Of a stretch of DNA of 64,000 bases, positions 7,655-58,674 are shown in pieces. Position 1 is the stretch's first letter. Every line of letters starts with the position of its first letter. Source of the stretch: Prorocentrum cordatum (Eukaryota > Sar > Dinophyceae > Prorocentrales > Prorocentraceae). Below the pieces are notes generated by a model that saw only the letters and a list, made by a program, of their open reading frames with translations, had not been told where the DNA came from and did no database searches. The stretch spans positions 52,856 through 116,855 of the forward strand of contig CAUYUJ010000208.1 in NCBI GenBank assembly GCA_963575745.1, written 5' to 3'. A program made the position numbers and the translations under genes.

Positions 7655-8030
7655 CAGGCGACGCGGGGGGGGGACCACGCCCCCGCCCGCCCCCTGCGGT
7701 GCTCTCCCAGCCCCGCCCAGCGCGTGCGCGCTGGGCATGGCGGCCAGGGAAGCATCCGGCGGGTGGCGCGGGGGGGCGTCGCTTCCTCCCGCTTCGCGCG
7801 CGCCCGGGCGAACGCGAGAGGGCGACGCATGGGCGAGGGCGGAGGGCTCGACCAAGCGCCAGCGACGGCGAGTGAAGACAACGCCCCCCGCAACCCCCCT
7901 GGCGCTCTCCCAGCCCTGTCCCGCGCGATCCCGCGCGCGCTGGGCATGGAGGCCAGGAAGGCGTCTGGGGAGGTGGCGCGAGGGCGTCGCCTCCCTTCGC
8001 CGCGCGAGCGCTTGGGCGAGCAGAAGAGGG
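7655..8030. repeat. Two-unit direct repeat, about 190 bp each
   Basis: Units at about 7,655-7,815 and 7,846-8,030 share GCTCTCCCAGCCC, GCGCGCTGGGCATGG and GGTGGCGCG in the same order and spacing. No coding evidence. It lies just beyond the 3' end of the minus-strand Helitron-type gene. Confidence 0.65.
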
Positions 8031-11000: not shown

Positions 11001-12994
11001 AGGAAGCGCAGCGGGCGAGGGTCCTCGGGCACAATGCCAGGGTCCGTGCCCCCCGGGGGGCGCCCGGCCATGCTGGGAGCGTACCCGAAGATGTTCGCCT
11101 TTGTATCGAACTCGACCCACGCCAGCACGTGCACGCGCAGCGTGCCCCGCCCCTGGAACTCGATGCGGAGAACGTATTGGAAGACGCGCTCGAAGCCGCA
11201 CTCGGACGGGCTCGCGAGAACGACCTTTTCAAACAGCGTCGTGATGGTGTGGCACAAGTGCAGCGTCAGGGCGGGCTGCAGCTCAGTCAAGTCAGAGGCC
11301 TCGCGCACGCGCGCAAACATACCGTCGTGTAGCAAAGCCTTCCACTCGGCTGGGGCAATCGTCATGAAGACGTTCGGGAGCCCACGCTTCCACTCGGACT
11401 CCACGTCGCGGGCAGCTCCCGGCCCTTGAAACGAGGCCACGTACTCCGGGTGCTCCGCCATCTGCCTGCAGACGTCCTCCAACTTCTCCCGCTCCCACTG
11501 CCAGAAGCCCGAGAAGTTCTGCATCTCCCTGGCCGGCTCGTCCGGGGCAATGCGCTGCTGCTTGGCAATCGCGACCAGGGAGGACAGCTGCCGCGCCAGC
11601 GCGATATCGTAGAGCAGCGCGAACAGAGGGAAGTCCGTCTGGTAGGCCACGCACCGGCTGCACAGCTTCCGCATGAAGCTCGCCTTGATGCTCGGCTTCC
11701 CGTTCTCTGCGGCGAGGTTCAGGGCGCGCAGGCGCGGGCGCAGATCGGAATCGCCAAAGGCGGACGTCGGGTACAGGACGGGCCGAGCCGCCGCCTCGAC
11801 CCCGGGCATCCGGAGGAGGAGCTCCGCGGTGTAGATCCAGCGCGCCCCCTCGCCCGCTTCCTGCAGGGCTGCGAGCTTCTGCAGGTGCATCTCGTAGTAG
11901 CGCCGGTAGGCGTCCGAGTGCTCCATGAGCCGCGCGAAGGCTGCCCGCGCTCGCGGGGTGGGCAGGCCCGCCTGGACATCGCGCGCGCGCGCCACCGGGC
12001 CCGGACCACGCTGGTCTTCTTCTTGCAGGCCGTCGGCGCGCGGCCGCCCCGCACAGAGGTGTAGTCGCACTGCAAGTTAATGATAGGCAGCGACGCGGCC
12101 TCCTCCTCCGTCAGCTCAAAAACGCATCGCTGGGCCGCTCCCTCGTCGCCCGCCGCCGCGCGGAACGTCCCGGCTCTCGCGTCGTAGACGGGCCAGTCGC
12201 TCGCGGCCGGCGTCACGTAGTACTTCGCGTTGCCGGAGCGAGGCTGCGCCGCGGCGGCCCTGCAGCTGGCGCACGCGCCGCAGTGCACCACGCGGCCGGA
12301 CTCGCTGGCGCCCGGGGGCGTCGACGGGCTTGCCCCAGTGCCAAACGCCGCTGCACTGCGTGCACGCGACCCATTCCGCCCCGGCCACCGCCGCTGCCCA
12401 CTCACCGGCGTCCACGCACGCAGACCGAGGTGCCAGGCGCCGGGGGGCGGCGCGCTCCATCGCCGACGGCGGCAGGTCGCGCCCGCCGGGGCAGGCCGCG
12501 GCGGCGGTCTCGACAGAGAGCCCGTGGCCGCCCACGGCCCAGTCGCGCTGCGGCGGCCGCAACGAGGGCAGAACGTCCAGGACCCGAGTGCCATCCAGCG
12601 CCGGCCTCGGCGAATGCCGTCGGGCGCCTCAGCATCCTCCGCGGGGCCTCCGCTCAGCTCCTCCACCGGCCTCGGCGGGCGTCCAGCGCCCACAGCGAAG
12701 CAGCGGTTCGATTCGGTCAGCCAAGTCGAGGCGGCGTCGGCGCGGCGCGCCCGACGCGGTGCCCGCGATCGCCATCGGCGCGGCCCCCTCGGCATTGCAC
12801 TGGAGGCGCAACTCCCGCGCCCGGCGCGCGCTCAAGCCGAAGTCCCTCCTCAGATCGCTCGGGCCAGCTCCGTCCCGTACCGCTTCGGCGACGCGTGCGT
12901 GGTCAGCAGCGCTGAGCGTGGCCCTGGTCGCGCCGGCTCGCACCGCTTGGGCGACGCGCGCGGTCAGTCGGTCTGGGGTCAGTGGCGCGGCGCA
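8088..12994 (-). pseudogene. Helitron-type Rep/PIF1-like helicase gene, 3' part, interrupted and mutated
   Basis: Minus strand, continuing from 23,641-24,154 after the inserted retroelement. In order of translation: one helix-turn-helix-like unit (about 12,920-12,790), Cys-rich segments (FCPRCGRR near 12,570, CTQCSGVWHW near 12,355, HCGACASC near 12,270), a Rep-like region and a PIF1-like helicase. The Rep region has EFQGRGTLRVHVLAW at about 11,120-11,165 and NYVTSYEMKGSDAL near 10,920, the expected position of the two catalytic Tyr. Helicase motifs seen: GGPGTGKTS (about 9,960), LLVFDECSQ, FVGDFHQLQP, MTIRRSQGSTLDM and YVALSRFRTRD. The family nicks and moves single-stranded DNA for rolling-circle transposition. 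Defects: the first His of the HUH motif is Arg (codon at 11,135-11,137); TAG at 9,014-9,016 stands where a Tyr is usual, just before motif V. The frame change between motifs V and VI fits a GC-AG intron at about 8,787-8,941 with an 18-C tract. Frame changes at 12,070-12,700 are further introns or breaks. It ends at a stop at 8,088. Confidence 0.82.
8787..8941 (-). other. Putative GC-AG intron in the helicase gene
   Basis: On the minus strand the interval begins GCGCCAAC and ends with about 18 C followed by AAGGAAG. Removing these 155 nt joins the helicase text ending CFDRTRR to RPDRGYAYVALSR and corrects the frame. The homopolymer would act as the pyrimidine tract. The ends are inferred from family conservation, not proven. 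Confidence 0.5.
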
Positions 12995-13385
12995 CTGTGG
13001 TGAGCGAACAGCCGAGGCACGAATGCTGTCTCGCGGGCACAGCAGCGAGGACGCGATGCGCGTGCGTCCGCGCGCCCCGCAGCGAGCGCGTGAGGTTGCG
13101 AGGGGCGCTTCGCCGCGAGGCGACGACACGCGAAACGCGAGAAAGATGGAGCCGCGGTTTTGTCGGATGCGCCGCGGCTAGGTCGCCGCGGAGGGAGCGC
13201 ACGCGAGCGTTCACCGCGGCACCGGCCAGCCTTGCCGCGCACAGGAACAGTCATGCGTGGCGGCTAGGCCGCCGCGGAGGGAGCGCGCGCGACCCGTCCG
13301 CGGCGCCGACCAGCCTTGCCGCTCGCAGGTTCCATAATTGTTTGCGGCAGGCGGGGCGCCCATCTTCCTGTGGGCGCGTTTCGCC
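12995..13385 (+). repeat. Split direct repeat A1 of YR element 1
   Basis: It starts at the core CTGTG followed by GTGAGCGAACAG and ends with GCGCGTTTCGCC. It matches 23,078-23,468 over its full 391 bp as far as I can read. It is the left end of the element. The base before it belongs to the interrupted Helitron gene. Confidence 0.93.
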
Positions 13386-14934
13386 TGCCGTTTCGGGCCC
13401 TGGCCCCGCGGCGTTTCGCTCTGGCCCCGTGTCCCTGGCCCTTTCTCTCTCGCCCTTCTGTCCTTCGGTGTCCTCCCGCCCCCTCTCGCGCCTGGCCCTT
13501 TCCCCTCTGCTGCGCTCCGCTCTCGCCCCGGCCCGCCTCTTGCCTCTCGCCCCGCGGCCCGCCGCCGGCCCTGTTCTCGGCCCCTCGGCCTCCCGTTCTG
13601 TCCCGCCGTCGGTCCCTTCGCTCGGTCTCTCGGTCCTGCCGTCCTCCCGCGCGCCGGTCTCCGCGCCGTCCGCCCCGCCGCGCGTCGGCGGGTCGCTCGC
13701 CCTCCGCTTCGCCCGCCGCGCGCGCAGGTTCCTCCTCCTTCTCCCGCGCGCGCGCAGGACAACCGCGGCCCCGCCGAGGCGGGCGGGCCGCGTTGGCTCA
13801 GCGCGCGCAAGACCAATCGCGGCCCCGCCGAGGCGGGCGGGCCGCGCTCTCGCGCGCGTGCAGATTGATTTCGACCCGCCGAGGTGGGCGGGCCGCGCGA
13901 TGCGCCCAGGCCGAAGGGCGCCCCGTTCTGGCCCCGTCGCCGCGTCGTCGTGTCGTCGTTGGCGCGTCGCGCCGCCGCCGCCGCCGCTGCTGCCGCTGCG
14001 CCGTCGCGTCCGTGTCGCGTCGGCTCGTCGTGCTCTGTCGCGTCGTCGTCGGGGCGTCGTGCTGCCGCTCGCCGCTGCCGCCGGTGTGTCGCTGCGGCCG
14101 TCGCCGTCGTGCCCGCCGCCGCCGCTGCGGTGGCCGCCGCCGCCGCCGCCGCTTCGTGTCCCGCTTCCGCTTTGGCCCCGGCGGGGCCTGCCCCGGCTCC
14201 GGTGGGGCCCGCTCCGGCCCTGGTGGCGTCCCGGTCCCTCCCTGGGCGCGGTGCTCCGCTCCTTCGTCGCCTCTGCTGGACGCGGCTCGTTTCGCGGCGG
14301 GCGCGCTGGGTCCCGGGCCGGCGCCCCGCCCGCTCCTCGTCGTTTTGCTTGGCTCGAAAGTTCTTTTCTGCCCATGGTCGGGCATCTGCGCAAGTGTGCG
14401 CACGGGGCTCGTGGACTCGCGGCAGGAGATCTGGGTTGTTGTGACACCCAGACTACCTGCTGCAAGTCCGCGAGTACCCACCCCGGCGCCTCGCGCCCGC
14501 AACTGGCGGGCAGGCGGACCGCCGGGGACATCCGTACCTGCGTTCGGCTCGTGTCGGTCGGCCCGGATCGGCCCTGGTGCCAGGCCGGCCCGTCCGGACT
14601 CCTGCAGAGACGGCGACTCGCGTTGCCCGTGCAGTCCCGGTCGAGCGCGCCAGACGCAGCGCGCGCGCGACCAGGTCGATGTTAAAGTCGCGGCGCCAGC
14701 GAGCCCGTTTCCCGCAGTGGCAGATCTCGTGGAGGTTGGGCTCGCAGCGCGCCCCAGCAGCGGCCGCGGCGGTGCGCGGTAGGACATGGAAAAGGATTTA
14801 GACGGCTTGCGCCAACCAGGCAAGGGAGATGTGGAGTGTGATCGGGCCCATCGGGGATCACGCTGACTCCACTAGCGTCGGCCCACTGAGGCCAGGACAC
14901 GGCACGACCAGGCAAGGTGGCGATGCCCGGATCA
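13386..14934 (+). other. Element 1 leader region, no gene recognised
   Basis: A CT- and GC-rich stretch between A1 and the satellite. It contains three roughly 50-bp units with GCCGAGGCGGGCGGGCCGCG (about 13,757-13,905). Open frames cross it on both strands, but the products are Arg/Pro/Ser-rich without domains. It is probably an untranslated leader. Confidence 0.6.
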
Positions 14935-15560
14935 TCATCTCCGGGGGGCGCTCGGCCCACTGGGGCCCCGCCCGCACCGGCACGTTCGATTGAACGTGAC
15001 CGGTGGGTCCACTGGGACCCCTTCAGGGAGCAGCGTGCACGCCCATGTTGGCTTTGCCCGTACCGGCGCGCTCACTGGACGCGACCGGTGGTCCACTGGG
15101 ACCCCTCTCCCTCCGCTCAAGGGCTGCAGGCAGGCCCACTGGGGCCCTGCCTGCACCGGCGCGATCGATTGGACGTGTCCGGTGGGTCCACTGGGACCCC
15201 ATCAGGGAGAAGCGAGCAAGCCCACGTTGGCTTGCCCGTACCGGCGCGCTCACTGGACGCGACCGGTGGTCCACTGGGACCCCTCTCCCTCCGCTCAAGG
15301 GCTGCACGCAGGCCCACTGGGGCCCTGCCTGCACCGGCACGATCGTTGGACGTGACCGGTAGGTCCACTGGGACCCCTTCAGGGAGCAGCGAGCAAGCCC
15401 ATGTTGGCTTTGCCCGTACCGGCGCGCTCACTGGACGCGACCGGTGGTCCACTGGGACCCCTCTCCCCCCCGCTCAAGGGCTGCAGGCAGGCCCACTGGG
15501 GCCCTGCCTACACCGGCACGATCGTTGGACGTGACCGGTTGGTCCACTGGGACCCGCTAG
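14935..15560 (+). repeat. Tandem repeat, about 178-bp unit, about 3.4 copies
   Basis: The word GGTCCACTGGGACCCC recurs at about 15,006, 15,089, 15,185, 15,268, 15,362, 15,446 and 15,540, two per unit. Units alternate CAGGCCCACTGGGGCCCTGC and GTACCGGCGCGCTCACTGGA. It sits in the leader of the YR element, upstream of the Gag-like ORF. Confidence 0.9.
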
Positions 15561-16091
15561 CCCTATGTTCTCCCAGGACGGCCTTTTGGTGGCCCCGCTC
15601 CTGGGTGACAGTGACGCGCCAAGGCCTGGCGCCCCGTTCGGGGCAGCGGACACCCGGCGCGAGCTGCGGGAGCAAGCGGCACCGACAGCTGAGAACGACG
15701 GACGGCCGGCGGCTCCGGCGGACGGTCCGGGCGGGGCGGTCCGGCTCGCTTACGAGGCTCCGCCATCCCGCCCGCCCCCCCCGCTCTCCGGGGCCCGCGT
15801 GTCGGGATTCGTGGCGCATGCGTGATCTCGCGCGCAGGCGGACTCGGGCCCCGTTACCGTTCCCGTCGCCGGTCGCACGTCGGTTTCTCCGAGGCTTGCA
15901 TTCGATCGTGCTTCGTGGCGGCTTCGCCGTGTCGGCCTCGGCCTCGTCTTTCCCGAGGCTCTCGCCCACCCGCCGACCCGCCAGTCCCGGTACCTCGTGT
16001 TCCGCGAACGTGCGACAGAGCGAGCCGCGCCGCGCGGACAGTGCAGCGGACTCCAGGTTTCCCTTCGTTCGCCGCGCAAACAATTGCCGCC

Positions 16092-17610
16092 ATGGAGGCG
16101 GCCGCTGCCTTGCGTTTCTTTCTCAAGAAGCATGCGATGGCGACAGGGGCTCCAGACCCGGACACATGGCTGAATGACATGGTCGCGATTCTCGACCGAG
16201 CGGAGGCACGTGTCCGCCGCCCGCGCGCGCGCTCCCGCTCCCGCCCGCGCGTCCGTGCGCGCGATCCGGCCGTCCCGCGCGGCCACCCGCGCGAGCGTCC
16301 CGTGCAACAGGTGTACACCCCGCAGGCACTCGTGTACGTCAACACAAAGAAGATTGAGATCTCGCCTGGAAAGGCTCACGCCCTCGACCAGGCTATACAG
16401 GCAAGCGCGCGCCCAGAACCGCCGCGACGGTCGCCCTGCGACCGCCGCCGTTCAGGCGGCGAAGAAGGAGTTCGCACCTGCTGGGACCACCGCGCCTGCC
16501 GGGCCAGCGGCACCCGCAGCGGACCCGCTGGCGGAGCTCACCCGCATCCTCACCAAGGATGACGCCCCGACGGTTCACGTCGACTTCCAGGCGCAGCTGA
16601 ACGCCATCACCCTGGCCAACTTGCCCACCGCGGCGTGGCCCAGGCGCGCCCCCCCCCCTCCCAGCCTGTTTCGCCGGTCCGCGGCCGCCCGTCCGGCCGC
16701 GTCGCGTCAGGACCGTGCGCGTCGATTCCCTCGCATCCGAGGTCGACCGCCTACAGAAGAAGAAAGGGCTTGCCGCCCCTTTTGTCAACGTCGACTTGCG
16801 CCTGTGGCTTCCCACGGGCGCGTCCGCCGTCGGCCGCCCACATGACGACGATGCCACCCAGGCGGGCGCGGGCGGCGGGGCCAAGCCTCGCCTGATGAAT
16901 TGGACCGAGTGGCACCTCGCCTTCGACCAGTACCTCGCTGTCCCGCCCGCCGACCGTACTCGCGGACCCTCCTCGGCGGCGCAGGTACGCTCTGGCCGCT
17001 GCCGCAACGAAGCAGCTCGACTTCGCCGCGGCACTCGCACACAAGCAGATCTGCCTCCTGGCATCTTGCCGCGCGCGCCCGCGCGCCCTCCGGCCAGCGG
17101 ATTCCCCGCTCGCTTCGCAGGTAGCGGCCCACGCCCAGCTCAAGGGCCGCAAAGCCCACCTGGGCGTGTTCTACGACCAGGTCGCCCGCCGCTCCTGGGC
17201 CGAGAAGGCCGCCGCTGGCGTCACAGGTTTCCAGGCCCGCCACCCCGCTCCGCCGCGCGCGCCCGCGCCCCGCCCCCCCGCCGCGGACCTCGGCATCGCA
17301 GGTGAGTCAGGCGGCCCTCGCCCTCGACGAGGTGCTGCTCCGCCAGGCGGAGCGGGAATACGATTTTGACGAGAAGAGCCTCGGCAGCGCCCCCGCCGCC
17401 ACGAAGCAGGAGGGAGCCGGTCCGGCCCGAGGCCCGGCGACGCCCAAGCGCAGCCAGGCCCACCGTGCGGGCCATGGCCTGACCGCCCAGCAGAGTCAGC
17501 AGAGTCAGCAGGGCAAGCGCAGGGCCGACACCGGGGCCAAGACCGGCTCCTGGAAGAGCTGGAACAACAAGAGCAACGGCGGGGGCGGCGGCAAATGGCA
17601 GCGCCGCTGA
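16092..17610 (+). CDS. Gag-like ORF1 of YR element 1, with six putative short introns
   Basis: The chosen start gives MEAAAALRFFLKK. Frame changes disappear if these intervals are removed: 16,206-16,310 (105 nt, least certain), 16,401-16,455 (55), 16,644-16,710 (67), 16,945-16,984 (40), 17,061-17,120 (60) and 17,235-17,301 (67). All six start GC and end AG. The joined exons total 1,125 nt, an exact multiple of three, or about 374 residues. Visible in the product: a coiled-coil-like stretch (DSLASEVDRLQKKK), a WTEWHLAFDQYL segment, FYDQVARRSWAEKA, and a Gln/Gly/Lys-rich tail (QQSQQSQQGKRR, then SWNNKSNGGGGGKWQRR) suited to nucleic-acid binding. Position before RT and this composition suggest Gag, the structural protein that packages element RNA. 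There is no CCHC knuckle. No sequence family is recognised with certainty. Confidence 0.65.
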
Positions 17611-17843
17611 TCAGCGACAGCGCGCGCCTGACGGGCACAGCCGTCAGCACGGCGCGCGGAATTTTGGGCTTGCTGCTAATTAGAGCGTCCGACGCGGTAA
17701 AGGGTCCGAGGCGCACCAGGAATGCGCGGGCCCCGCCCTCCCTCCTGCGCCCTCCACGGCGCCCCCCTCGCCCTCCACGGCGCGCCCCTCGCCTTGGCGC
17801 CCCCCTCGCCCTCCGCGGCGCGTGCGTTCAGCTTGCTTTCGCC

Positions 17844-20483
17844 ATGAAGCGCTTTCGCGAGCACGCGAGCCCGGACGAGCCGGCTCCCAAACGGTCTGTG
17901 TCTGATGCTCGCAAGTTGTCTTTCGCCGAAGCGGCCGCCCTCGAAGGCGATGCCGGCTTCGAGCCGGGCTGCAAGCTTTCGCAGGACACTTTGGCGGCGC
18001 TTGAATGGATGGCATCGAGGCCACCCGAAGAGGCGCCCAGGTGCGCGCGCAAGGCGACCGCGCGCCACGACCGAGCGCAGGTAAGGGAGGAGCGTGAAGG
18101 GGCTGTTCTGCGGGTCCTCTCCATGGCACATCAGTTCAGGACGGCCGGATTCGTCGAAATCTGGGGTCGCGGCGCGGACCCGGGCGTCGCCAACGTAGCA
18201 TCCGGCGTCAACGGCCCGCTCTTCGAACGCCTGGTCGCCGATGTGGACTTCCACGACCCGAAATGCGTTGACTTCTTCCGTGAGGTGCAACGCGCGAGGG
18301 GCGGCTCTGCTTCTCGCGCCCGACGGAGCGCGGCCGGCGAAGGGTGCACCGCTGATTGGGACACTCGAAAAATCCGGCACGGGGACGGAGATGGCGCATA
18401 AGCCGCTGATATCAGCGGAAGAGATCCTTCGAGGCCGGCGCGCGCGCGCGTCGGCAGGGGCCCGGCTTCTCCTCCCTGGCCCCCCGCCCCGCCGCGCGCC
18501 AGCCAATGCACGGGACAGAAAAGCATTGTTCAAAAGGACACGGCCAAGCCCGTGCGACGAAGCGCTGCACGAGGGCGCACTCGCCGACGCGAGCGCGGGG
18601 CGATTGACGACGCCCCGGCGACTGAGCCCCGACGACGTGCCCCCGGATGCCGCGGTAATCCCCCGCTTCGGCGTGGAGCAGGGGACGCGGCCGGACGGCA
18701 CCGCTAAGGTACCCCGACGGCCGCCCGCGCCGCTCATTCGCGGACCGCCGCCCGCGCGCCAGGTGCGCGCCGTAGACGACTGCAGCGCGGCCCACCTCAA
18801 CAAGGGTACGGAGCCGCAGGAACGGATGAAGCATGACACTGTCGACGCGCTGTTTGACGCGTGTCGGAAATTGGCGCGACGCGTTTCTCGGGCCCCGACG
18901 CCGCGTGCGCTCTGCCCTGTTCAGGCACCCCTGGGGCCCTTGGAGCTCTTCAAGGCCGATATTGATTCCGCCTTCCGCAGAATCCCCTTGCGCCCGGAGC
19001 ACCGACGCTTCGCTTGGGTCATCTATTGCTTCGCCGGCGTCACCTGGGGAGCCCAGCACGTTGCCCTCCCGTTCGGAGCAGGCCCGCGCGGGCCATCCCG
19101 CCCCACCCGCCGCCCCGCCGCGCGTCGCGGCGCAGTCAGCAGCGTACACAACTGGGAGAGAATCGGCGCGGCCCTAGTGGCCATCTGCAGGCGCCTCTTG
19201 CGGATCCCAATCCTGAGGTACGTCGACGATCTGTTCGGCGTCGAGCGCTCCGGGGAGGCCCGTCTCGCTCTGTCCCCTCCCCCCCTTCCGTCGCACCCGG
19301 TCGACCCTCTCCGCGCTCGCGCAAAGGCCCAGCACGCCCTCTCGTGCGTGGTCCGGGTGATCAGGTGCATCCTGGGCCCTACGTCGGTGGCCGATAAGAA
19401 AACTGAGTCGGGCCCGTCGCTCGTGATTCTCGGACTAGCCATCTCGGTGCACCGCGCGCGACGCGTTCGCGAATGGGGGGCTAGGGCACTGTGCGTGCGG
19501 TGTCGCAGACCTCACGCAAAGGGCTGATTGCGCGCCCGTCCAAGGACAAGGTCGACAAATGGACGAACCGAATCAGGACGGCGCTTGACGACGGTTCGAT
19601 GACCGCAGGCGCGCGCGTGATCGCGCGCCGCGCGCGCCGGGGGCGACACCTTTCTTTGCACAGGTGGGGCCGCCAAGCTCGCGGGCGCGTTGTCGTGGGC
19701 GGCGTCGTGGCAATTCCGCAAACTAGGCCGTGCGATGCTGCGGCCCTTGTTCGCCCACGCACACTCGGGGCGTCCGTTTCTACCGCGCCCCGCCCTGCGC
19801 AGCCTGGCGTGGTGGTTGGAAGTGTTGCAGAGAAGCGTTGCAGAGACAAGGGAATGGGAGCCCGCGGACACCCGCCCGCCGGTCCTTGCCTTCGCTGACG
19901 CCCGGGGCGAGCCCCCACGAGCGGCCGCCGTCCTCTGGATCGACGGACGTTGGGAATACACAGACCAGATGCCGCCGGCCTGGCTAACGAGGCCCCGATC
20001 GCGCGCCGGCGACCGATCGATGCAATTCGGCCTGCGCGCAGGCAATTCCAGCAGCGGAGCGACGATCAGATCGCCGGACTCGAGATGCTCGCTTCGGCCT
20101 TGGCGATCTCCACCTGGCAGAAGGAGCTCCGGGGCCGCAAGGTTCGCCTCTTTAGCGACAACACGATCGCCGAATGGTCGTTCCGAAAGGGATCAGCGAA
20201 GTGCTGCGACCACGGGGCCATCGTCCACCACTTCTGGTCGGTGATCGGGCTGCTCCAGATCAACCTCCGGATCGACCGTGTCCCTTCCGGCGGGCCCGCG
20301 CGTTATCTCTGTCAGGTCGGGTCCCACTCCCGCGGCGCGCCAGTTGATAACATTTCTGACCTGCCCAGTCGGGAGGATTATGATCTCATGACACGCATTG
20401 GGGCCACCTGGAGGCGCCCGTGGCTGCGGCCAGAATTCTGGGACCTCCAGCTGCCATGCCAGCTCGCGGCCCGTCCCGTCTGA
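17844..20483 (+). CDS. RT-RNase H ORF2 of YR element 1, with about 12 putative short introns
   Basis: The gene copies element RNA into DNA. Key residues: KADIDSAFRRIP (RT motif A), PFGA...VSSVHNWERIG (motif B), RYVDD at about 19,217 (catalytic motif C), and RNase H segments VRLFSDNTIAEW and VDNISDLPSRE. Aligned to the uninterrupted copies at 35,356 and 47,147, the extra segments are 18,033-18,080 (48), 18,285-18,342 (58), 18,434-18,502 (69), 18,709-18,762 (54), one ending 18,924, 19,082-19,135 (54), 19,258-19,326 (69), 19,447-19,508 (62), 19,615-19,663 (49), 19,992-20,041 (50) and 20,290-20,343 (54). They start GC or GT and end AG. Removing them repairs every frame change and gives gap-free alignment at most joins (for example FFRE|GAPLIG beside FRRGAPLVG). 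The insertion ending at 18,924 could be 33, 42 or 54 nt. The spliced length is about 2,031 nt (676 residues). Confidence 0.85.
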
Positions 20484-20572
20484 GCGCTCTCGCGGCCTCG
20501 CCAGTGCTCTCCTTCCCCCCGCTCCTGCTCTCCCGCCCACCCGTCACCCCGCGCTCGCTCGCGCGTAGCGTC

Positions 20573-21055
20573 ATGCGGCAAGTCTGCCCCCGCCCCGAGG
20601 GCATTTTCAACGTATCCATGGCGCGCGATCGAACACCGCCGCGGAGGTGCTGTTACGTTCGGCTGATCCAGCGAGCGCACACCGCAAGTCATCTCGCGAA
20701 GGTCGCGGCGCATTCCCTTTTCAGGAGCGAGATGCGGCAGCGCGACACGGACGCGGCGGCCTCGTGGCTGCGGGGCCGCGGGATCCGCTCGTGGTTCCAG
20801 CTCGGGCGGCTTCCCGCGGATTCAGTGCCGTCCCTGGGCTTGGCTAGGGACGCGCGCGCGACGATCCTCCGGGCCATCCAGCTGGCCATCGAATGCCGAC
20901 TGGACGAAGCACTCTGCACCTTCGGCACGGAACTCGAACCGGAGTCCAGCTGCTCAAGCAGCGAATCTGATACCATCGACTATCGCACGACGATGGTGGG
21001 CGCGCCGCAGGGCGCGGACGTCGATGACGACCCAATCGAAACGACGTCGCCTTAG
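20573..21055 (+). CDS. Small ORF3 of YR element 1
   Basis: 160 residues from ATG at 20,573. It sits between RT-RNase H and the recombinase. The N-terminal half reads as helices (HTASHLAKVAAHSL...), followed by a GIRSWFQLGRLPADSV segment and ARDARATILRAIQLAIE. The tail is Ser/Glu/Asp-rich. The helical part resembles the N-terminal part of the recombinase ORF in the second element (37,112 onwards), in which an equivalent domain is fused to the recombinase. It may be a SAM- or HhH-like interaction domain, which is inference. No catalytic motif is seen. Confidence 0.5.
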   Translation: MRQVCPRPEGIFNVSMARDRTPPRRCCYVRLIQRAHTASHLAKVAAHSLFRSEMRQRDTDAAASWLRGRGIRSWFQLGRLPADSVPSLGLARDARATILRAIQLAIECRLDEALCTFGTELEPESSCSSSESDTIDYRTTMVGAPQGADVDDDPIETTSP

Positions 21056-21250
21056 CCGCGCCGTCACCGGCCAGCGCCGGTCGCTCCCGCTCGACCCCGC
21101 GCAAGGCTCGCATCAGAGAAAGAGACGCGAGCGCCGCCCGGGAAGGCGCGTCAGTAACGCGGCACGAACGCTCTCACACGCGAAGGGGGCTATCGAGAGG
21201 CGCGCAGGGCGCGGGGCGACCTCTCTCAACGCGCCCCTCGGCGCGCCAGA

Positions 21251-22822
21251 ATGAAGCTCGCCGACCAGATCGCCGTTGCGACCCCGTGGGCGTCACCCAC
21301 GGTCGTTGAGGAAGTCGCCAAGTTTCTGGTTTCTTGCGATGTGTTCGCGATCTCATCTGTGCGGGCGGTTGGCGCACCGGAAAACTGGAGCGGCTACGTG
21401 AATCTGTCGCCCGACGCGCAGCGCGCGATCGCGCTCTTCGCGCGAGCAAAGCCGCCGCCGGGCCCGCCACCTGCGGCGGCGTTCGTGAGTGACGAGGTGC
21501 CTGCGGCGCCCGTGTGCGCTCAGCCGTGTGTCTCCTCCGCCGCTGGCTCCTCCTCTTCCTCCTCGTCCTCCTCCTCCTCCTCGTCCTCCTCGCCCCCCCC
21601 GCGGGCGGGTGGTAGGAGTCCAGCCGCGCAGGCACCCGCACGCCCGCAACAGGAGGGCGTACTCTCGCAGCGGCTGCAATTAGCGCGGGCGACGGCCGCG
21701 CTGAAAGCGTCGCCCCTGGGCTCGAGAAGAGGAGGCCCGCGCGCCGCAATTCGACGCCTGGCCGTTGCGCCGAGCGACCCCGAATTCAGGAAGCGCGCCT
21801 TATTCGGGGCCCGGTGCGCCGCCGTCCTCAACGGTGCCCCGCGCTCCATCGGCACGTGGACAGCCGGCCTGAGGTGCTGGTTCCGTTTCGCCAAATCGCA
21901 GCTCGGAAAAGGGGACAGCCCCCTCCCGCCAACTGCGGACGAGCTATGTCTTTGGGCTTTGTGCTTCTCGAACCCCGGCACTTTTGCCAATTACAAAGCC
22001 CAGGTCGACAAGGCCTGCACGCTGCTGGGCCTCGACCGCTCAGCGTTCAGCAGCCCCGCCGTTTCGCGCGCAAAGGCCGCGATCAAGCACCGTGCGCCCC
22101 AGCCTGACCCGCGACCTCCCCCTGTCACGCGGAAGGCGTTAGTCGCGATGTTGCCGCACGTGCCTGACCCTCAGGTGCGAGCGCTGTTCGTAGTCGCCTT
22201 CGCACTGGCCTTGAGGCTTCCCTCGGAGGCGCTGTTGATCAGCATAGGCGACCCAGCACGGGCGGCCAACTTCCGGTTCACGCAGGAGGAACTGGACCGC
22301 CCAGTGCCGACCATCGTGCTTTTCAACACGAGCGAGGCGGTCGTACTCCACCTCTCGAGGCGAAAGCATAAGCCCAGGCCTAGCGAAGTCAGGCGCTCGT
22401 GCTGGTGCAGCATCTGCACCGCGACCTGCCCAGTGCACGCCCCGCGCGCCCTACTGGGCGACCTCGCGCCGGGTGCGTCTCCTTTTGCCCACCTGGCAAA
22501 GCCGACCAGAGCCGGGCGCGTGCTCCCCGTGCCAGCAATTACCCGCAACCTGCGCAGGTCGGCGCAAGCGGCGGGCCTCCCCAATGCCGCCCGCATCACC
22601 TCGAAGTGCCTGCGGCGCGGCCACACGGAGACTCTCCGCCAAAGCGGGGGGAGCCTCGCCACCATCTTGAGAGCCGGCAACTGGAGGTCCGGCGCATTTA
22701 AGGCCTACCTGGACCAGCCTGCCCTGGAAGACGCGGCGACGGGCGAGGGCATGGCCCTCTCCGCCAGCGCGGGCCCTGAGGCCGCGGGCCATGACCCCGC
22801 AGGCGCTGCATCTCAGCCGTAA
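21251..22822 (+). CDS. Tyrosine recombinase (integrase) ORF4 of YR element 1
   Basis: 523 residues, uninterrupted. An N-terminal helical domain (about 1-65) is followed by a low-complexity Ser run (about 98-112), a core-binding domain with GTFANYKAQVDKAC (about 238-251), and the catalytic domain. The expected catalytic residues are present: Arg in ALRLPSEAL (about residue 323), the second Arg box in CLRRGHTETLRQSGG (about 455-469, with Lys in the H/K position), and GNWRSGAFKAYLD with the nucleophilic Tyr at about 485. The SCWCSICTATCPVH Cys cluster is shared with the second element. The enzyme should recombine the CTGTG core of the circular intermediate with the target. Plus strand, 195 bp after ORF3, and just upstream of B1. 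Confidence 0.9.
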   Translation: MKLADQIAVATPWASPTVVEEVAKFLVSCDVFAISSVRAVGAPENWSGYVNLSPDAQRAIALFARAKPPPGPPPAAAFVSDEVPAAPVCAQPCVSSAAGSSSSSSSSSSSSSSSPPPRAGGRSPAAQAPARPQQEGVLSQRLQLARATAALKASPLGSRRGGPRAAIRRLAVAPSDPEFRKRALFGARCAAVLNGAPRSIGTWTAGLRCWFRFAKSQLGKGDSPLPPTADELCLWALCFSNPGTFANYKAQVDKACTLLGLDRSAFSSPAVSRAKAAIKHRAPQPDPRPPPVTRKALVAMLPHVPDPQVRALFVVAFALALRLPSEALLISIGDPARAANFRFTQEELDRPVPTIVLFNTSEAVVLHLSRRKHKPRPSEVRRSCWCSICTATCPVHAPRALLGDLAPGASPFAHLAKPTRAGRVLPVPAITRNLRRSAQAAGLPNAARITSKCLRRGHTETLRQSGGSLATILRAGNWRSGAFKAYLDQPALEDAATGEGMALSASAGPEAAGHDPAGAASQP

Positions 22823-22927
22823 TGCGCGCTCGTCGCGCCCTTCATCCCGCACGCGGTAAGAAACGTCGCGACGTTGGCAGTGGGGGCGCGCGCACACGAC
22901 GGCTGACGCCGGCCTGCTGTTGCATTG

Positions 22928-23082
22928 GGTTGTAGCAGCCAGGCGTCGCCGTCGAGGCGCGCGCCGCCACCGCCTTGTGCTCGGCGGGGGCGGCGCCGCC
23001 CGACGCGCCGCCGCACCCATCGCAGGATGGTTGCTGCGACCGCGTGGCGGACGCCGCAGAGCGCCGCGCCCGCAGCGCTGTG
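22928..23082 (+). repeat. Split direct repeat B1 of YR element 1
   Basis: It begins GGGTTGTAGCAGCCAGG and ends CGCAGCGCTGTG. It matches 23,485-23,640. Its last five bases (CTGTG) are also the first five of A2. Confidence 0.92.
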
Positions 23083-23468
23083 GTGAGCGAACAGCCGAGG
23101 CACGAATGCTGTCTCGCGGGCACAGCAGCGAGGACGCGATGCGCGTGCGTCCGCGCGCCCCGCAGCGAGCGCGTGAGGTTGCGAGGGGCGCTTCGCCGCG
23201 AGGCGACGACACGCGAAACGCGAGAAAGATGGAGCCGCGGTTTTGTCGGATGCGCCGCGGCTAGGTCGCCGCGGAGGGAGCGCACGCGAGCGTTCACCGC
23301 GGCACCGGCCAGCCTTGCCGCGCACAGGAACAGTCATGCGTGGCGGCTAGGCCGCCGCGGAGGGAGCGCGCGCGACCCGTCCGCGGCGCCGACCAGCCTT
23401 GCCGCTCGCAGGTTCCATAATTGTTTGCGGCAGGCGGGGCGCCCATCTTCCTGTGGGCGCGTTTCGCC
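23078..23468 (+). repeat. Split direct repeat A2 of YR element 1
   Basis: Second copy of A (12,995-13,385), overlapping B1 by the CTGTG core. It is separated from B2 by 16 unique bases (23,469-23,484). Confidence 0.92.
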
Positions 23469-23484
23469 CCACCCACATCCGCCC

Positions 23485-23640
23485 GGGTTGTAGCAGCCAG
23501 GCGTCGCCGTCGAGGCGCGCGCCGCCACCGCCTTGTGCTCGGCGGGGGCGGCGCCGCCCGACGCGCCGCCGCACCCATCGCAGGATGGTTGCTGCGACCG
23601 CGTGGCGGACGCCGCAGAGCGCCGCGCCCGCAGCGCTGTG
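23485..23640 (+). repeat. Split direct repeat B2 of YR element 1
   Basis: Second copy of B, ending with the core CTGTG at 23,636-23,640. The next base (23,641) resumes the interrupted Helitron gene, so this is the right end of the element. Confidence 0.92.
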
Positions 23641-24154
23641 CTCCGTACAAGGCGCGCAAAGCCTTCGCCCGGCTTTTGCTCAAGCCGTAATCCTTCGCGA
23701 GGTCGCCCGTCCGCGTGCCGCCCCGCACTGCCTCCGCGATCCGCGCGTGCTCCGCGGCTCCCAGCGTCGCTCGGCTCCGCGACCGTCCTCGCGCAGCTGC
23801 TGCCGCCGCCTGCTTGCCACGCGCGCGGCGCGCGGCCCGCGGTGGCGGCGCAGCGGCCCTTGGGGCCCGATTCGGCGTCAGTGGCGCCGCGCCCTGGCAG
23901 CCGCACTGGCTGCGCAACGCCCGCCCGCGTCGCTTGCTCACCCCGACGTCCCTGATGAGGTCGCCCACTGTCGCGCCGCCCCGCACCGCCTCCGCGATGC
24001 GCGCGTGCTCCGCGGGCCCGAGAGTCACTCGGCGCGGGGCCTGCGCAGGACCAGCCGCCGCGACCCGCCGACGCCGGCGAAGACCGCCGGCTGCGCCAGA
24101 GGACGCGGGCGCCTCGATGGCCGCCGCTGGGCGCTTGCGAACCAGGCGAGCCAT
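23641..24154 (-). pseudogene. Helitron-type gene, 5' part, with helix-turn-helix-like repeats
   Basis: Minus strand. The chosen start at 24,154 gives MARLVRKRPAAAIEAP, a basic N-terminus. Two units then follow, each with the pattern LGxAEHARIAEAVRGG...DL..D.G.SK.R.RALR; in the first unit they continue into Q(C)...GAAPLTP. The second unit is cut by the YR element right after the codons GGA GCA CAG. A third unit and the start of another lie on the far side (12,994 downwards). The repeated unit looks like a helix-turn-helix DNA-binding module by length and by the DL..D.G.S helix pair; this is inferred. The piece belongs with 8,088-12,994; together they encode the N-terminal repeats, Cys-rich fingers, Rep-like domain and helicase. 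Confidence 0.75.
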
Positions 24155-34929: not shown

Positions 34930-35303
34930 TGAGTGAACAATCGCCAGATATGTAGGTAGGACGTTAATGCTTGCAGCCAGTCCGTCTCATGGTGGGCAGA
35001 GGTTCTGGGGTTGCTCGCGCGCGAGGCCGCACGCACTTGTTGTGATGAGTACGGCGCATAGCTCAGAACCGCACCGCTGACCCCGAACACCCCATCCAGA
35101 ACCGATGCTCGCGAGATAGTCTTTGGCCACTCCTTGCTGGGGCCACTTTGGGCGCTGCCACAGCGTGCCCCCCCAGGTAGGTGGAGTGAGGAGGAACATC
35201 ACGTACAGAAAGGGTAGAAGGTGTGTGATGCAAGCGTTGGCCCAGAGGCCACTTTGGCCCAGAGGACTGGCAATTTAACCATCGCGTGCATTTTGCTCGC
35301 GAC

Positions 35304-35360
35304 GGGATCTCGTGCCGCCAAGGGAGTGGAGCCTCGCTGCGCGATGTGGCGCGTGCTGGT
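35304..35360 (+). mobile_element. 57-bp 5'-end fragment of the 6-kb repeat unit
   Basis: It begins GGGATCTCGTGCCGCC and ends GCGCGTGCTGGT, identical to the first 57 bases at 48,728 and 60,775. It is joined to the RT-RNase H ORF within the 5-bp overlap CTGGT (35,356-35,360). The sequence to its left is unrelated. Confidence 0.85.
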
Positions 35361-37093
35361 TCGCGGGCTGCGATGCCCATGTGCGCACAATCGCAGGGTC
35401 GATCAACGGCCCTCTTCTCGTCGAACTGCTCGACGAAATCGGTTACGAGGACGCGGCCTGCGTGGAAGTCTTTCGGCGCGGCGCGCCTCTCGTGGGCCCT
35501 CTCCCGTGCACGGGGAACGGGCGTCCGGAATCTTTCCCTGTACCGCTCAGCCTGCCGGACTTGGCCGCGGGCGCGGAGCGAGGCAACGCCGCGCTGCTCG
35601 GCACGCTCAAGGAGTCTAGCGACTCCGCCGTGATTCTCACCAAAACTATCGCCGAAGCGGAGCTCGGCCGAATGAGCCATCCCGCGCCGCTCAGCGCGGT
35701 CGAGCTCGACGGTGCGGTTTTGTCGCCGCGGTTCGGCGTCCGGCAGTCGAGAGAGGACGGGTCCGAGAAGCTGCGGCTCGTAGATGATATGTCGCGCTCT
35801 CGTATCAACGCGGCGTCGCAGCCGACGGAGCGTCTCGGCCATGAAGCCATCGACGCTCTGTTTGGCACTTGCAAGGCATTTGTGACGCGCGTGGGCGAAG
35901 CGCCCGGGCTCTGGAAGGCGGACATAGACGCCGCGTTCCGGCGCGTGCCGCTGTTGCCGGAACATCGCGCCCTCGCATGGGTCGCGTTCCTCGTGGGCAC
36001 ATGCGTCTACGTGGCTCAGCACTTCGCCGCCCCATTCGGAGCGACTTCCTCCGTTCACAGCTGGGAGCGCATCGGCGCGATGCTGTCAGCGCTGGGCCGC
36101 AGGCTCATTTTCGTCCCCGTCCTCAGATATGTGGACGACTTCTTCTGCCCCGAACGTAAGAAAGGGCTGCGCGACGCAATGCGACAGTTCGCCGAACTGG
36201 TAAGAATCATTCTGGGCCCGAGCGCTGTGGCCGACGGTAAGCTGCTGTTCGGCAATCCGCTCGGGGTCCTGGGCTTGTCTGTGGCGATTGACGAGCGTGG
36301 CCTCGTGTGCTGGCCGCTGCCGGAGAAGCGCGCCCGGTGGCGCGCCGAGATCGCTGCTGCTCTTCAAGAGGGCGCGCTCGAGCGCGGGCGCGCGTCCAAG
36401 TTGGCAGGCCGCTTCTGTTGGGCTGCCTCCCACACCTTCGGGCGGTTCGGGCGCGCGCTGCTCCCGCCGTTGTTTGAGCACGCAAGGGCGCGCCATCCTA
36501 GTATCCCGGCGCACCTGCGAGTCTGCCTGCAATGGTGGCACGAAGCGCTCGCCAGAAATTTCACCACGACGCGGGAGTGGCAGGCGCCAGACACCAGGTC
36601 TGTCCAATTGCTCTCCGACGCGCGGGGGAATCCAGCTAGAGTGGCCGCGGTTCTTTTCATTGACGGGCGCATTGTCTTCACCGATGTCGCCCCGCCTGAG
36701 CCTCTGCTTCGGCTCTTCAGGGAAAGGCGCGACAATCAAATCGGCGGTCTGGAGGTGCTCAGCATCGCGCTGGGCCTGGCCACCTTTGAGCCGCTCCTGT
36801 CGGGCCGATGCGTGAACATCTTTTCGGATAATTCAGGCAGCGAGTGGGCCGTCCGGTCCGGTGCGGCGAAGCAGTTTGACCACAATTGCCTGGTCCACTC
36901 AATCTGGCGCATGGCGCTGGATGCGAATTGCAATCTGCACGTTCAGCGTGTGGCGTCGGTGGACAACATCGCCGACCTGCCGTCGCGCGAGTCATATTCC
37001 CTGCTGTATCGCTTGGGGGCGGAGTGGATTCCTCCGGTGCTGGACGATGCCTGGTTCGATCCGAGCGCGTGGCTTCCTCATCGCCGGCCATGA
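35356..37093 (+). CDS. RT-RNase H ORF of YR element 2, 5'-truncated
   Basis: It is open from an ATG at 35,312, but the first 15 or so codons belong to the fused fragment; element sequence starts at about 35,356 with WFAGCDAHVRTIAGSINGPLL. It is identical, as far as I can see, to 47,348-48,648. Motifs: KADIDAAFRRVP (about residue 203 counted from 35,312), PFGATSSVHSWERIG (about 240), RYVDDFF (about 270), RNase H segments CVNIFSDNSGSEW (about 500) and VDNIADLPSRESY (about 549). No intron-like insertions at the positions where element 1 has them. About 65 N-terminal residues known from the third copy (47,147) are missing. It stops at 37,093, 18 bp before the recombinase ATG. Confidence 0.9.
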
Positions 37094-37111
37094 CCGGCTC
37101 GGGCGCTGGGC

Positions 37112-38905
37112 GTGCGTGCAATGGATCTGGCCTTCACTCATCGGTCAGGGTGCGCCCGCCAGGTCGGGCAGGGGTTGGCGTCCTCCCTCGCGCACGTCGC
37201 GGTCGCGCTTCGCCTGTGGGCGCGCGAGGGCATCTCTGGTTTGTCGGCGCACCTGGAGAATGTCATCGGTGTTCGCGCGATGGCGCTGGCTGGATTGCTC
37301 GCTCAGCTTCGCGCGGTTTGCCCTGAGGCACGCCCTCTTCCTGTGTTCGCCGCTGCCGAGCTGCTTGCCGATAACGGCGCCGACGCCGTGAGCGATTTGG
37401 TTGGCGTCACCCTGGCAGACTTCAGGGGCGCCGCGGCATTATCTTGCGACGCCCGCGAGGTGGTCCGCGCGGCTATCGCGGCAGCCCAGCGCGGCGGCGC
37501 GCCAGCCGCACTGGGCAGGGGCAGCGCGGGCGCTTCTCCTGCGCCCGCCCCGTCGCCCGGGATTGCCCCCAGGTCTGCTTGCGCGTTCCGCGTTCGTCGC
37601 GGGCCCCCCCCTTGTCGGCCGTCGCAGGACCGACATCGCGACGCGGTCGCCCTCGAGCGTATCCGTCTCGTCATCCTCCACGGTGCGCGCGCGAATTTGC
37701 GGCATGTCGCTCGCAGCGCTAAACGCGGGCGCCAGGACAGCGGCAGGGCGCATGCAGCTCCCCCGGAGGACCCCGTGTCCGCGGTCCGGTGGGCGCTCTC
37801 AGTCGCTGGGCGCGAGGGTCGGCGTGACATGCGCGGGCCGCGGGCCGAAGCTGCTCGGGCCAGAGCCCTCATCACCTCCTCGGCGGCCGGTAAAGCGTGG
37901 GCGCGCAGGGCCCGGGTGAGCGCTCTCCTGGGCGCATGCCCGCGCTCATTGCCCGCGCTCAGCAGCGGGTTCGAGTGCTGGGTTACATTCGCAAGGGGCG
38001 TCTTAAAGCGACGGGGGAAGGAACTGCCGCCCACCCTGGAGGGGCTGCTTCTGTGGTCCACGACCTTCAGGTGCGCCGGGACCTTCAGCAATTATGTGAC
38101 TTACGTGAAGAAGGCGTGCCTCGTGGCATGCCGGCGCGCGCCCGCCTCTCATCTTCCGGCAACGCGCGCGTCCGCCCGCGGCGGCAGTTGGCGCGCAAGG
38201 CCCGTGGAAGTCTTCAGGCACCCGGCGGTTCGCGCCGCTAAGAACGCCATCGAGAAGCGTTCGGGCTGGCAGGCGAAGGCGCGCATGGCCCTTCAGGGCC
38301 GCGACGTCGCCCGTCTGGTGTCGCACCTGCGCGTCAGTGACGAGGGTCGCCGTTTCGCCATGTTGTGCCTGGCGGCCTACGCATTCCTCCTTCGGCTACC
38401 CTCGGAGGCCCTGCCCGCGGTGCGGGTTGAAGATGGCGCGGCCGCGGCTTGCGTGGCCTCCGCGTTCGTCGTCGGCGATCAAAAGATCGAGCTGCACCTC
38501 TCCAGGAGAAAGAACCGCGAGAGCCGCTCGGTGATGGCACGGCAGTGCTGGTGCGACGAGTGCGCGGTCACCTGTCCCGTACACGTTCTTGGGGCCTGGC
38601 TAGTTGGCGAGCCAGCTCATCAGCCCATCTGGGCTGCGTGGTCCCCAGGCGCGGCACGTGCTCGGCTGCGCCGCGCGCTGGGCGAAATGGGGCGCCACGA
38701 CGCGGAATCATTCGGCACTCACGCGTTCAGGCGCGGGCACGCGCAGGACATCGCTGCCAGGGGCGGACCGGTCACCGACCTTCTTCGCGCGGGCGGCTGG
38801 CATCAGCCCGCGTGGATGAAATACCTTAACGTTTCCCGGCTCGAGCGGCAGTCGGTCGCGGAAGCCCATTTGGCAGAGTCGTCCAGCGACGATGGCGATG
38901 GCTGA
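37112..38905 (+). CDS. Tyrosine recombinase ORF of YR element 2
   Basis: 597 codons from ATG at 37,112. The N-terminal helical domain (about 1-130) is related to ORF3 and the ORF4 N-terminus of element 1. A Pro/Ala/Arg linker follows, then a core-binding domain (CAGTFSNYVTYVKKAC, about 325-340) and the catalytic domain. Catalytic positions: Arg in FLLRLPSEAL (about 427), HAFRRGHA with the His and second Arg (about 536-543), and GGWHQPAWMKYL with Tyr at about 571. The QCWCDECAVTCPVHV Cys cluster is conserved with element 1. The region 38,134-38,187 is 54 nt, begins GC, ends AG and is extra relative to element 1, so it may be an intron. It ends in an acidic SSSDDGDG tail. It should integrate the circular DNA. 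Confidence 0.9.
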   Translation: MRAMDLAFTHRSGCARQVGQGLASSLAHVAVALRLWAREGISGLSAHLENVIGVRAMALAGLLAQLRAVCPEARPLPVFAAAELLADNGADAVSDLVGVTLADFRGAAALSCDAREVVRAAIAAAQRGGAPAALGRGSAGASPAPAPSPGIAPRSACAFRVRRGPPPCRPSQDRHRDAVALERIRLVILHGARANLRHVARSAKRGRQDSGRAHAAPPEDPVSAVRWALSVAGREGRRDMRGPRAEAARARALITSSAAGKAWARRARVSALLGACPRSLPALSSGFECWVTFARGVLKRRGKELPPTLEGLLLWSTTFRCAGTFSNYVTYVKKACLVACRRAPASHLPATRASARGGSWRARPVEVFRHPAVRAAKNAIEKRSGWQAKARMALQGRDVARLVSHLRVSDEGRRFAMLCLAAYAFLLRLPSEALPAVRVEDGAAAACVASAFVVGDQKIELHLSRRKNRESRSVMARQCWCDECAVTCPVHVLGAWLVGEPAHQPIWAAWSPGAARARLRRALGEMGRHDAESFGTHAFRRGHAQDIAARGGPVTDLLRAGGWHQPAWMKYLNVSRLERQSVAEAHLAESSSDDGDG

Positions 38906-39020
38906 GCACCCCGCGCAGTCTGGTGGTCGTGTCTGCACGGCACACACGTGGGCGCACCCCCGGCACGCGGGGGCAGTGGGTGGCAGCGCCGGGCGTGGCC
39001 CGCGGGAGCGCCGTTGCAGT

Positions 39021-39106
39021 GGGTGGTGCTCCCCCACGGGCCCGACCGGCGTCTGCCCGCTTGGCCTCGGAGAGGCCGCGCGCTGCGGGGCAGATGGGTC
39101 GGGTCC
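39021..39106 (+). repeat. Direct repeat, probable B1 of YR element 2
   Basis: 86 bp beginning GGGTGGTGCTCCCCCACGGG and ending GATGGGTCGGGTCC, repeated at 39,584-39,669. It starts 115 bp after the recombinase stop. Confidence 0.8.
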
Positions 39107-48648: not shown

Positions 48649-48701
48649 GGGTCGGAATAACGAAGTTATTGCTTGGCACAAATCCGCCCGCGCTGTGAAC
48701 G
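48649..48701 (+). mobile_element. 53-bp module shared with 39,188-39,240
   Basis: GGGTCGGAATAACGAAGTT... to ...CGCTGTGAACG. It carries the 15-bp interrupted palindrome AATAACGAAGTTATT (48,656-48,670). Flanks differ on both sides between the two loci apart from one or two bases, so the module behaves as a unit. It separates the RT fragment from the 6-kb repeat unit. Confidence 0.85.
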
Positions 48702-48767
48702 AGGGCCAGTCTGCGACCGCTCGCATTGGGATCTCGTGCCGCCAAGGGAGTGGAGCCTCGCTGCGCG

Positions 48768-52355: not shown

Positions 52356-52359
52356 GGGG

Positions 52360-53172: not shown

Positions 53173-53204
<32 letters not shown>

Positions 53205-53224
53205 TCATCAACAGCATCGACATC

Positions 53225-53255
<31 letters not shown>

Positions 53256-54601: not shown

Positions 54602-54706
54602 CCCCCGCCGCCCGTTTCAAGCGCGGCTCTTCTATCGCCCCATAGTTCTTAGCATTGTCATATTATTCCTTGCGCGGCCTCCGACGCCATCATTCACATG
54701 AAGGGA

Positions 54707-58643: not shown

Positions 58644-58674
<31 letters not shown>

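Follow-up and report, generated by a model that had tools for sequence, protein, structure and literature searches.

Copying through RNA should erase introns, and both the standard retrotransposition test and the recognition of retrogenes are based on this expectation. Among the described tyrosine-recombinase elements, the Ngaro element (DIRS order) of Cafeteria burkhardae has the layout A1-[ORFs]-B1A2B2 and encodes a Gag-like protein, RT-RNase H and a tyrosine recombinase (PMC8547959), and SymbioDIRS from the dinoflagellate Symbiodinium combines A-coding-B-A-B repeats with an RT and a recombinase (PMC5890265). Penelope-like elements are said to keep introns through retrotransposition (PMC3846280), and in dinoflagellates introners are described as a source of numerous introns whose ends are unusual, for example GC/GA-AG (PMC7789003, PMC11453091, PMC9860276). 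A search by title and start of the abstract, mainly in the open literature and outside the older founding papers, returned no DIRS-order element with many introns, and the word 'intron' is absent from PMC3783388 and PMC3266345. Here we describe an element from Prorocentrum cordatum, located in a stretch of 64,000 nucleotides (the window), which judging from its sequence seems to retain the very pieces that copying of spliced RNA should erase.

This element, named element 1 (Table 1), is a tyrosine-recombinase retrotransposon of the DIRS order and Ngaro/PAT/kangaroo-like, these three types being taken together. It encodes RT and RNase H and a Cre-like tyrosine recombinase, not a DDE integrase, shows the A1-body-B1A2B2 arrangement (in full A1-Gag-RT/RH-YR-B1-A2-B2, bounded by CTGTG) and lacks a target-site duplication, with CTGTG marking either end as well as the B1-A2 boundary. 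A neighbouring repeat unit (23874–24033), which is a paralogous reference and not a true empty allele, aligns with the joined flanks at 73.75% over 160 bp, with no gap across the junction. Split direct repeats are re-made from a single copy in each reverse-transcription cycle. Because both repeat pairs of element 1 are 100% identical (391 and 156 bp), the element, which is apparently intact, was apparently inserted recently; therefore its last cycle of reverse transcription would also be recent and the introns would have passed through it. Gene conversion or assembly collapse could be an alternative source of this identity. No GIY-YIG endonuclease was matched by Pfam in the scanned RT and YR ORFs, the DNA examined contained no dinoflagellate spliced leader, Rfam family or tRNA (0 matches each), and the PDB sequence search gave unrelated matches only. 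The first-pass annotation had covered only the middle of the element, and its full span, the repeats and the recombinase were newly recognised.

Table 1: Features of element 1 and of the related element A in the window.
Feature	Position	Strand	Remarks
Element 1, whole	12995..23640	+	10.6 kb; tyrosine-recombinase retrotransposon; split direct repeats
CTGTG core, left end	12995..12999	+	recurs at 23078-23082 and 23636-23640 (sequence comparison)
Repeat A1	12995..13385	+	= 23078-23468, 391 bp, 0 mismatches
Minisatellite, ~178-nt units	14954..15555	+	leader 5' of Gag
Gag-like gene	16092..17610	+	five or six predicted introns; ab initio model only, without homologue
Gag intron 1	16206..16310	+	105 nt, predicted; both models agree on borders
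Gag intron 2	16401..16455	+	55 nt, predicted; independent model starts 16407
Gag intron 3	16623..16710	+	88 nt, predicted; both models agree on borders
Gag intron 4	16945..16984	+	40 nt, predicted; independent model starts 16930
Gag intron 5	17061..17120	+	60 nt, predicted; independent model: laxest setting only
Gag intron 6	17211..17301	+	91 nt, predicted; independent model ends 17310
RT-RNase H gene	17844..20483	+	12 exons; 2028 nt after splicing, 675 aa
RT intron 1	18033..18080	+	48 nt
RT intron 2	18285..18342	+	58 nt, frame-changing
RT intron 3	18450..18518	+	69 nt, placement weak
RT intron 4	18709..18762	+	54 nt; site common to P0075, missing in P0048
RT intron 5	18907..18945	+	39 nt, placement weak (free alignment 18897-18941, 45 nt); missing in P0047, P0048, P0049, P0075
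RT intron 6	19082..19135	+	54 nt; site common to P0047, P0048, P0049, P0075
RT intron 7	19258..19326	+	69 nt; site common to P0047, P0049, probably P0048
RT intron 8	19447..19508	+	62 nt, frame-changing; possibly common to P0047, P0049
RT intron 9	19609..19663	+	55 nt, frame-changing
RT intron 10	19992..20041	+	50 nt, frame-changing
RT intron 11	20290..20343	+	54 nt
Tyrosine recombinase gene	21251..22822	+	523 aa, single open frame
Repeat B1	22927..23082	+	= 23485-23640, 156 bp, 0 mismatches
Repeat A2	23078..23468	+	shares CTGTG core with B1 (overlap)
Repeat B2	23485..23640	+	copy of B1
Element A (5'-truncated), RT-RNase H gene without introns	35356..37090	+	related to element 1 RT
Element A, recombinase gene	37112..38905	+	single open frame; weak Phage_integrase match E 0.24; hhalign

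A profile made from 17 RT homologues served to call the introns of the RT-RNase H gene, by spliced alignment in which no splice sites were favoured. The score rose from 303.5 bits without introns to 671.8 bits with 11 introns, the alignment covered nearly the full RT-RH profile, and removal of the 11 segments left a single frame of 675 aa with one terminal stop; that taking such segments out repairs every frame change had been claimed from the sequence alone. When GT/GC...AG ends were imposed, 11 introns were still obtained at a cost of 14.6 bits, whereas the same requirement cost 119.7 ± 14.6 bits (minimum 77.1) once the letters of each intron had been shuffled, with none of 100 shuffles being as low. 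This control took the place of a dinucleotide-pair scan, rejected as too weak a proof of the splice sites: GC...AG ranked 3rd and GT...AG 40th of 256 pairs, since GC-rich borders can slide. A retrotransposon with Gag and RT cut by tiny GC-AG/GT-AG introns, as first described, is borne out; about 12 RT segments of 33–69 nt had been listed, and of these the segments stand with a corrected count of 11 and lengths of 39–69 nt, none measuring 33 nt.

Seven of these introns start with GC and four with GT, AG ends the preceding exon in 7/11 and G opens the following exon in 6/11 cases, and no extended consensus among the 5' splice sites was visible by eye. Four change the frame; the other seven have lengths divisible by three (P = 0.039 for as many as this), and for them splicing is less compelled. 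In our judgement two of the 11, introns 3 and 5, are poorly placed. A homology-free gene finder with independent training recovered 9/11 introns by overlap (2 exactly) with the two laxest of four settings, and 6/11 and then 4/11 with the two stricter ones. The motifs FKADID, YVDDL, ADARG and FSDN, which we take to be those of RT and RNase H, are intact in the spliced product. Pfam matches to the RT are weak in general, with RVT_1 found at E ≤ 0.01 in 10/17 RT homologues and RT_RNaseH in one exon ORF at E 0.021, below its cut-off. The same spliced alignment called no intron in the RT of element A (35300–37150), whose full-length twin P0001 was included in the profile, and the earlier description of the RT at 35,356 as uninterrupted proved right.

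For the Gag-like gene, the finder trained on element 1 itself gave six introns (40–105 nt) with all four settings, matching the six of this size proposed before, and independent models gave 6, 5, 5 and 5 with partly different borders. As control, false introns called by the self-trained finder numbered 2, 2, 2 and 0 for the recombinase ORF and 2, 1, 0 and 0 for the intronless RT, and the independent finder called one with each setting in the recombinase ORF and none in the intronless RT. Because of these false calls and the varying independent models the Gag count is softer than that of the RT; GC-AG was 5th of 256 in the Gag dinucleotide-pair scan. Together, element 1 would have about 17 introns and not about 18, 11 of them supported by homology and five or six predicted from the nucleotide sequence.

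In both RT protein searches the best 7999–8000 candidates were scored, all homologue counts referring to the matches listed. At least 73 RT homologues came from public assemblies, 20 of these 73 bearing inserts of at least 12 aa (32 inserts, median 60 nt), as counted from position 60 onwards, outside positions 244–249 and apart from the window's own copy. The inserts at profile positions 244–249 in 19 other RTs were not regarded as introns, as they resemble a real basic protein segment. No relatives were found in viral contigs or in the genome contigs scanned.

Relatives with 44–48% protein identity carry segments at the sites of element 1 which are unrelated in sequence and length and partly frame-shifting, and gains and losses of introns are visible between them and element 1. 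From the in-frame inserts of P0047, P0048 and P0049, 5/7 lie within one residue of an element 1 site (expected 0.81, p 0.0002), where a match by either of two placements was accepted and the seven inserts represent three sites in related proteins and are not independent. In 15 other homologous proteins 3/22 insert sites did so, which corresponds to chance (expected 1.92, p 0.30); this test leaves aside P0004, P0012, P0018, P0075 (where two sites merge in one block), a 46-aa block in P0022 and the 244–249 inserts. In P0075 a conserved exon lies frame-shifted between two such sites (score 80; mean 44.6 and maximum 55 in 60 shuffles) and a further one follows the next site (75 vs maximum 59 in 40 shuffles), so the segments of this protein are not protein insertions there. 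More modest are the tails of P0049 (59 vs maximum 54 in 30), P0047 (62 vs 56 in 30), both as frame-shifted exons, and P0048 (62 vs 53 in 40), as well as P0022 (105 vs 91 in 6). The lineage has probably carried introns for a long time, gaining and losing them singly.

We consider it probable that element 1 is a recent tyrosine-recombinase retrotransposon with about 17 long-carried tiny spliceosomal introns, the spliced RNA being translated and the unspliced RNA being copied. Since identical repeats mark a recent insertion, the introns appear to have arrived together with the element. A single transcript would then have two fates, with fully spliced molecules serving the translation of Gag and RT and unspliced full-length molecules being reverse transcribed, after which the recombinase would put a presumably circular cDNA into a short CTGTG core, and partly spliced templates would lead to occasional deletion of an intron. 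Support for this model comes from element A with its intronless RT and one-frame recombinase in the same window. Among the three accounts offered with the first-pass annotation, escape of the genomic RNA from splicing is the most likely one left, and splicing as expression control is possible.

An antisense transcript as template, in which the introns would be unrecognisable, has been proposed for Penelope-like elements, another intron-keeping retroelement (PMC3846280), and would account for the joint survival of many introns; we regard it as unlikely, as gain and loss at single sites agrees no less well with partly spliced sense templates. Quite unlikely is also movement as DNA only, by which the recombinase would cut out the DNA between the outer CTGTG cores as a circle and re-insert it, so that the introns never meet splicing. 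Cryptons, which are DNA transposons without RT, are thought to move in this way, and the position of the cores, at either end and where B1 meets A2, together with the open Cre-like ORF would permit excision of a complete circle, but A1/A2 and B1/B2 should then diverge and not be identical, and the RT motifs kept here, with relatives among the at least 73 public homologues, suggest that the RT is needed. That the segments are decay of a frameshifted pseudogene or additional low-complexity protein could be read from the seven multiples of three and from a 428-aa ORF running through several of them, but is very improbable given eleven precise removals leading to one frame, GT/GC...AG ends far exceeding the shuffled controls, frame-changing lengths at the same sites in a relative, and identical repeats. 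Introner-like invasion of this copy after insertion, also put forward at first, is hardly tenable even though recent introner activity is reported for dinoflagellates (PMC11453091), as the 0 differences in the repeats give about 17 independent gains no time to occur, the sites are common to relatives at 44–48% identity, and the introns have no common sequence beyond short GC-rich stretches. A comparison in search of similar introns, as expected of introners, gave only such short matches among the 11 RT introns and, elsewhere in the window, one match of 24 nt at two places.

Keeping about 17 introns over long evolution would mean that the genomic RNA is shielded from splicing, as in the preferred two-fate model, or that the template is not sense RNA, and either would offer a testable route to the sorting of spliced and unspliced RNA in intron-rich protists. 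With belief and doubt about evenly balanced, we further propose that such elements are widespread in protists and inherit dense tiny introns as permanent parts, fully spliced RNA giving Gag and RT and fully unspliced RNA the genome, a retrovirus-like splicing switch acting on about 17 introns together. Automatic annotation would fragment and undercount them.

Compared with known systems, Cryptons share the tyrosine recombinase with element 1 (PMC3212892). Introners form families of similar introns that spread through the genes of their hosts, whereas the introns of element 1 are mutually unlike and would be inherited with the retroelement. Penelope-like elements have another type of RT and endonuclease, and their case concerns a Pen5 copy with one intron, and an intron-containing gene of the host (PMC3846280), in contrast to the about 17 introns here. 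The DNMT genes of SymbioDIRS are reported as intronless, whereas the Pfam scan of the element 1 ORFs examined gave no methyltransferase; its RT is said to align poorly with Pfam seeds (PMC5890265), and the Pfam RT matches of element 1 are likewise weak. The Ngaro element of Cafeteria burkhardae has the same repeat layout and gene order as element 1, and while the covered text of PMC8547959 does not mention introns, Gag and RT of element 1 appear to hold about 17.

The RT-RNase H gene of element 1, a split-repeat tyrosine-recombinase (YR, DIRS-order) retrotransposon, is cut by eleven tiny introns. The region 17700–20560 was aligned, with introns of any type allowed at a fixed opening cost, against a profile built from 17 reverse transcriptase homologues; the score was 303.5 bits without introns and 671.8 bits with eleven. 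When GT/GC...AG ends were imposed all eleven were kept at 657.2 bits, a loss of 14.6 bits, whereas 100 control sets with the introns shuffled in place lost 119.7 ± 14.6 bits under the same constraint (minimum 77.1; 0/100 as low as the real loss). Removing the introns from 17844–20483 leaves 2028 nt or 675 aa with one stop, the terminal one, and four of the eleven (58, 62, 55 and 50 nt) change the frame. We could therefore confirm the first-pass annotation, which had described tiny GC-AG/GT-AG introns here whose removal repairs the frame. Donors are GC in seven introns and GT in four, the preceding exon ends in AG in 7/11, the following exon starts with G in 6/11, and the C content is 43% in introns versus 32% in exons (the exon set being shifted one base at its start). 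The same method applied to the uninterrupted RT at 35.3–37.1 kb found no introns; the profile of 17 includes the twin of this RT, P0001. An ab initio gene finder using neither homology nor training on this gene recovered nine of the eleven by overlap (two exactly) at the two laxest of four settings, and six and four at the stricter ones.

For the upstream Gag gene, introns were called by gene finder without a homologue, at four settings each. Models trained on element 1 returned an identical set of six at every setting (105, 55, 88, 40, 60 and 91 nt), as proposed before (six of 40–105 nt), but independent models gave 6, 5, 5 and 5, three with one differing border. In the recombinase ORF the trained models made 2, 2, 2 and 0 false calls over the four settings and the independent ones one at each; in the intronless RT the figures were 2, 1, 0 and 0, and zero at each. 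Because the Gag calls have no homologue and the finder gives false calls, we count about 17 introns in all, 11 of them backed by homology and the other 5 or 6, in Gag, inferred.

In elements of the split-repeat kind the end repeats are, according to the model, re-made during reverse transcription. Both repeat pairs of element 1 are identical, and therefore a recent cycle is indicated; for about 17 introns to have been gained one by one after it, while all 391 + 156 repeat positions stayed free of substitutions, is not credible. A search with a 428-aa frame reading through several introns gave 40 proteins among the matches listed, one being the window's own. P0047, P0048 and P0049 (48, 44 and 47% identity to element 1) carry extra segments where element 1 has RT intron 6, and P0047 and P0049 also where it has intron 7; the segments differ in length and are unrelated in sequence, and 5/7 of the inserts in these three proteins lie within one residue of element-1 sites (0.81 expected, p 0.0002, counting a match to either of two placements per site in proteins related to each other). 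One further insert is common to P0047 and P0048 and missing in element 1, P0048 lacks intron 4, and intron 5 is missing in these three and in P0075. In P0075 the exon after the intron-4 site lies in another frame (score 80 versus a shuffle mean of 44.6 and maximum of 55, 60 shuffles), as does that after the intron-6 site (75 versus a maximum of 59, 40 shuffles), so the segments there are not extra protein. Given the shared positions and these frame shifts, sequence comparison places the shared sites before the split of element 1 and these four lineages, with single introns gained and lost individually. Invasion after insertion, an earlier option, is contradicted for this copy by the unsubstituted repeats together with the sites common to relatives.

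Among 73 RT homologues (best matches of two protein searches), 20 carry inserts of at least 12 aa (32 inserts, median 60 nt), counted beyond profile position 60, outside 244–249 and with the window's own copy left out; only stop-free inserts are visible in ORF collections, which biases this count, and some inserts may be protein. In 15 proteins outside the close subfamily, 3/22 insert sites fall within one residue of element-1 sites (p 0.30), and as this is no more than chance it suggests independent gains. This group of RTs may often carry tiny introns. Inserts of 18–23 aa, many Cys/Leu/Val-rich and of intron-like length, occur at varied sites in P0032, P0052, P0070, P0071, P0077 and P0078. 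An often basic insert of 12–21 aa at profile 245–248, between RT motifs, in 19 homologues (e.g. P0031, P0032, P0035, P0040, P0052, P0065) seems to be a genuine protein feature.

The simplest and most likely account of how the introns are kept would be that, as in retroviruses, a single transcript is used in two ways: spliced for RT and Gag, at minimum at every frame-changing intron, and unspliced as the copied template, which would have to retain all introns. A live rival is an antisense transcript as template, as proposed for Penelope elements (PMC3846280). Movement as DNA only, by the recombinase, is a further live rival, against which the identical repeats and the intact RT motifs speak.

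Element 1 sits inside a tandem array whose minus-strand frames show, by eye, repeated helix-turn-helix-like segments. The adjoining uninterrupted ORF is, from its domain matches, likely a Helitron. Of the related elements, A is truncated at the 5' side and B at the 3' side, and their junction pieces match; this and the identity of their RTs reflect either recombination or assembly collapse. The CPW_WPC domain, named by Pfam after Plasmodium, occurs in alveolates; together with the GC donors it would fit an alveolate host, perhaps a dinoflagellate.

Features in the neighbourhood of element 1
Feature	Position	Strand	Remark
ORF, 1018 aa	9017–12070	−	Helitron_like_N match just below cut-off; AAA/PIF1 helicase matches
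Tandem array	12700–12990 and 23650–24100		
Elements A / B	35295–39241 / 47347–48784		RT identical over 1302 bp
Large duplications	50700–54671 / 56131–60087 and 48721–51918 / 60768–64000		96–97% identical
CPW_WPC domain	49213–50223	+	E 7.2e-8

The dinoflagellate spliced-leader motif was not found in the 64-kb window. A literature search by title and abstract start, with key older papers outside its reach, found no DIRS-order element with many introns. Split-repeat YR elements are already known, and so are retroelements that keep introns, namely Penelope elements (PMC3846280). GC donors, together with GA, are reported at a high share in Symbiodiniaceae introns (PMC7789003, PMC11453091). Dinoflagellate introns average 335–893 bp in the same reports, far longer than those of element 1.
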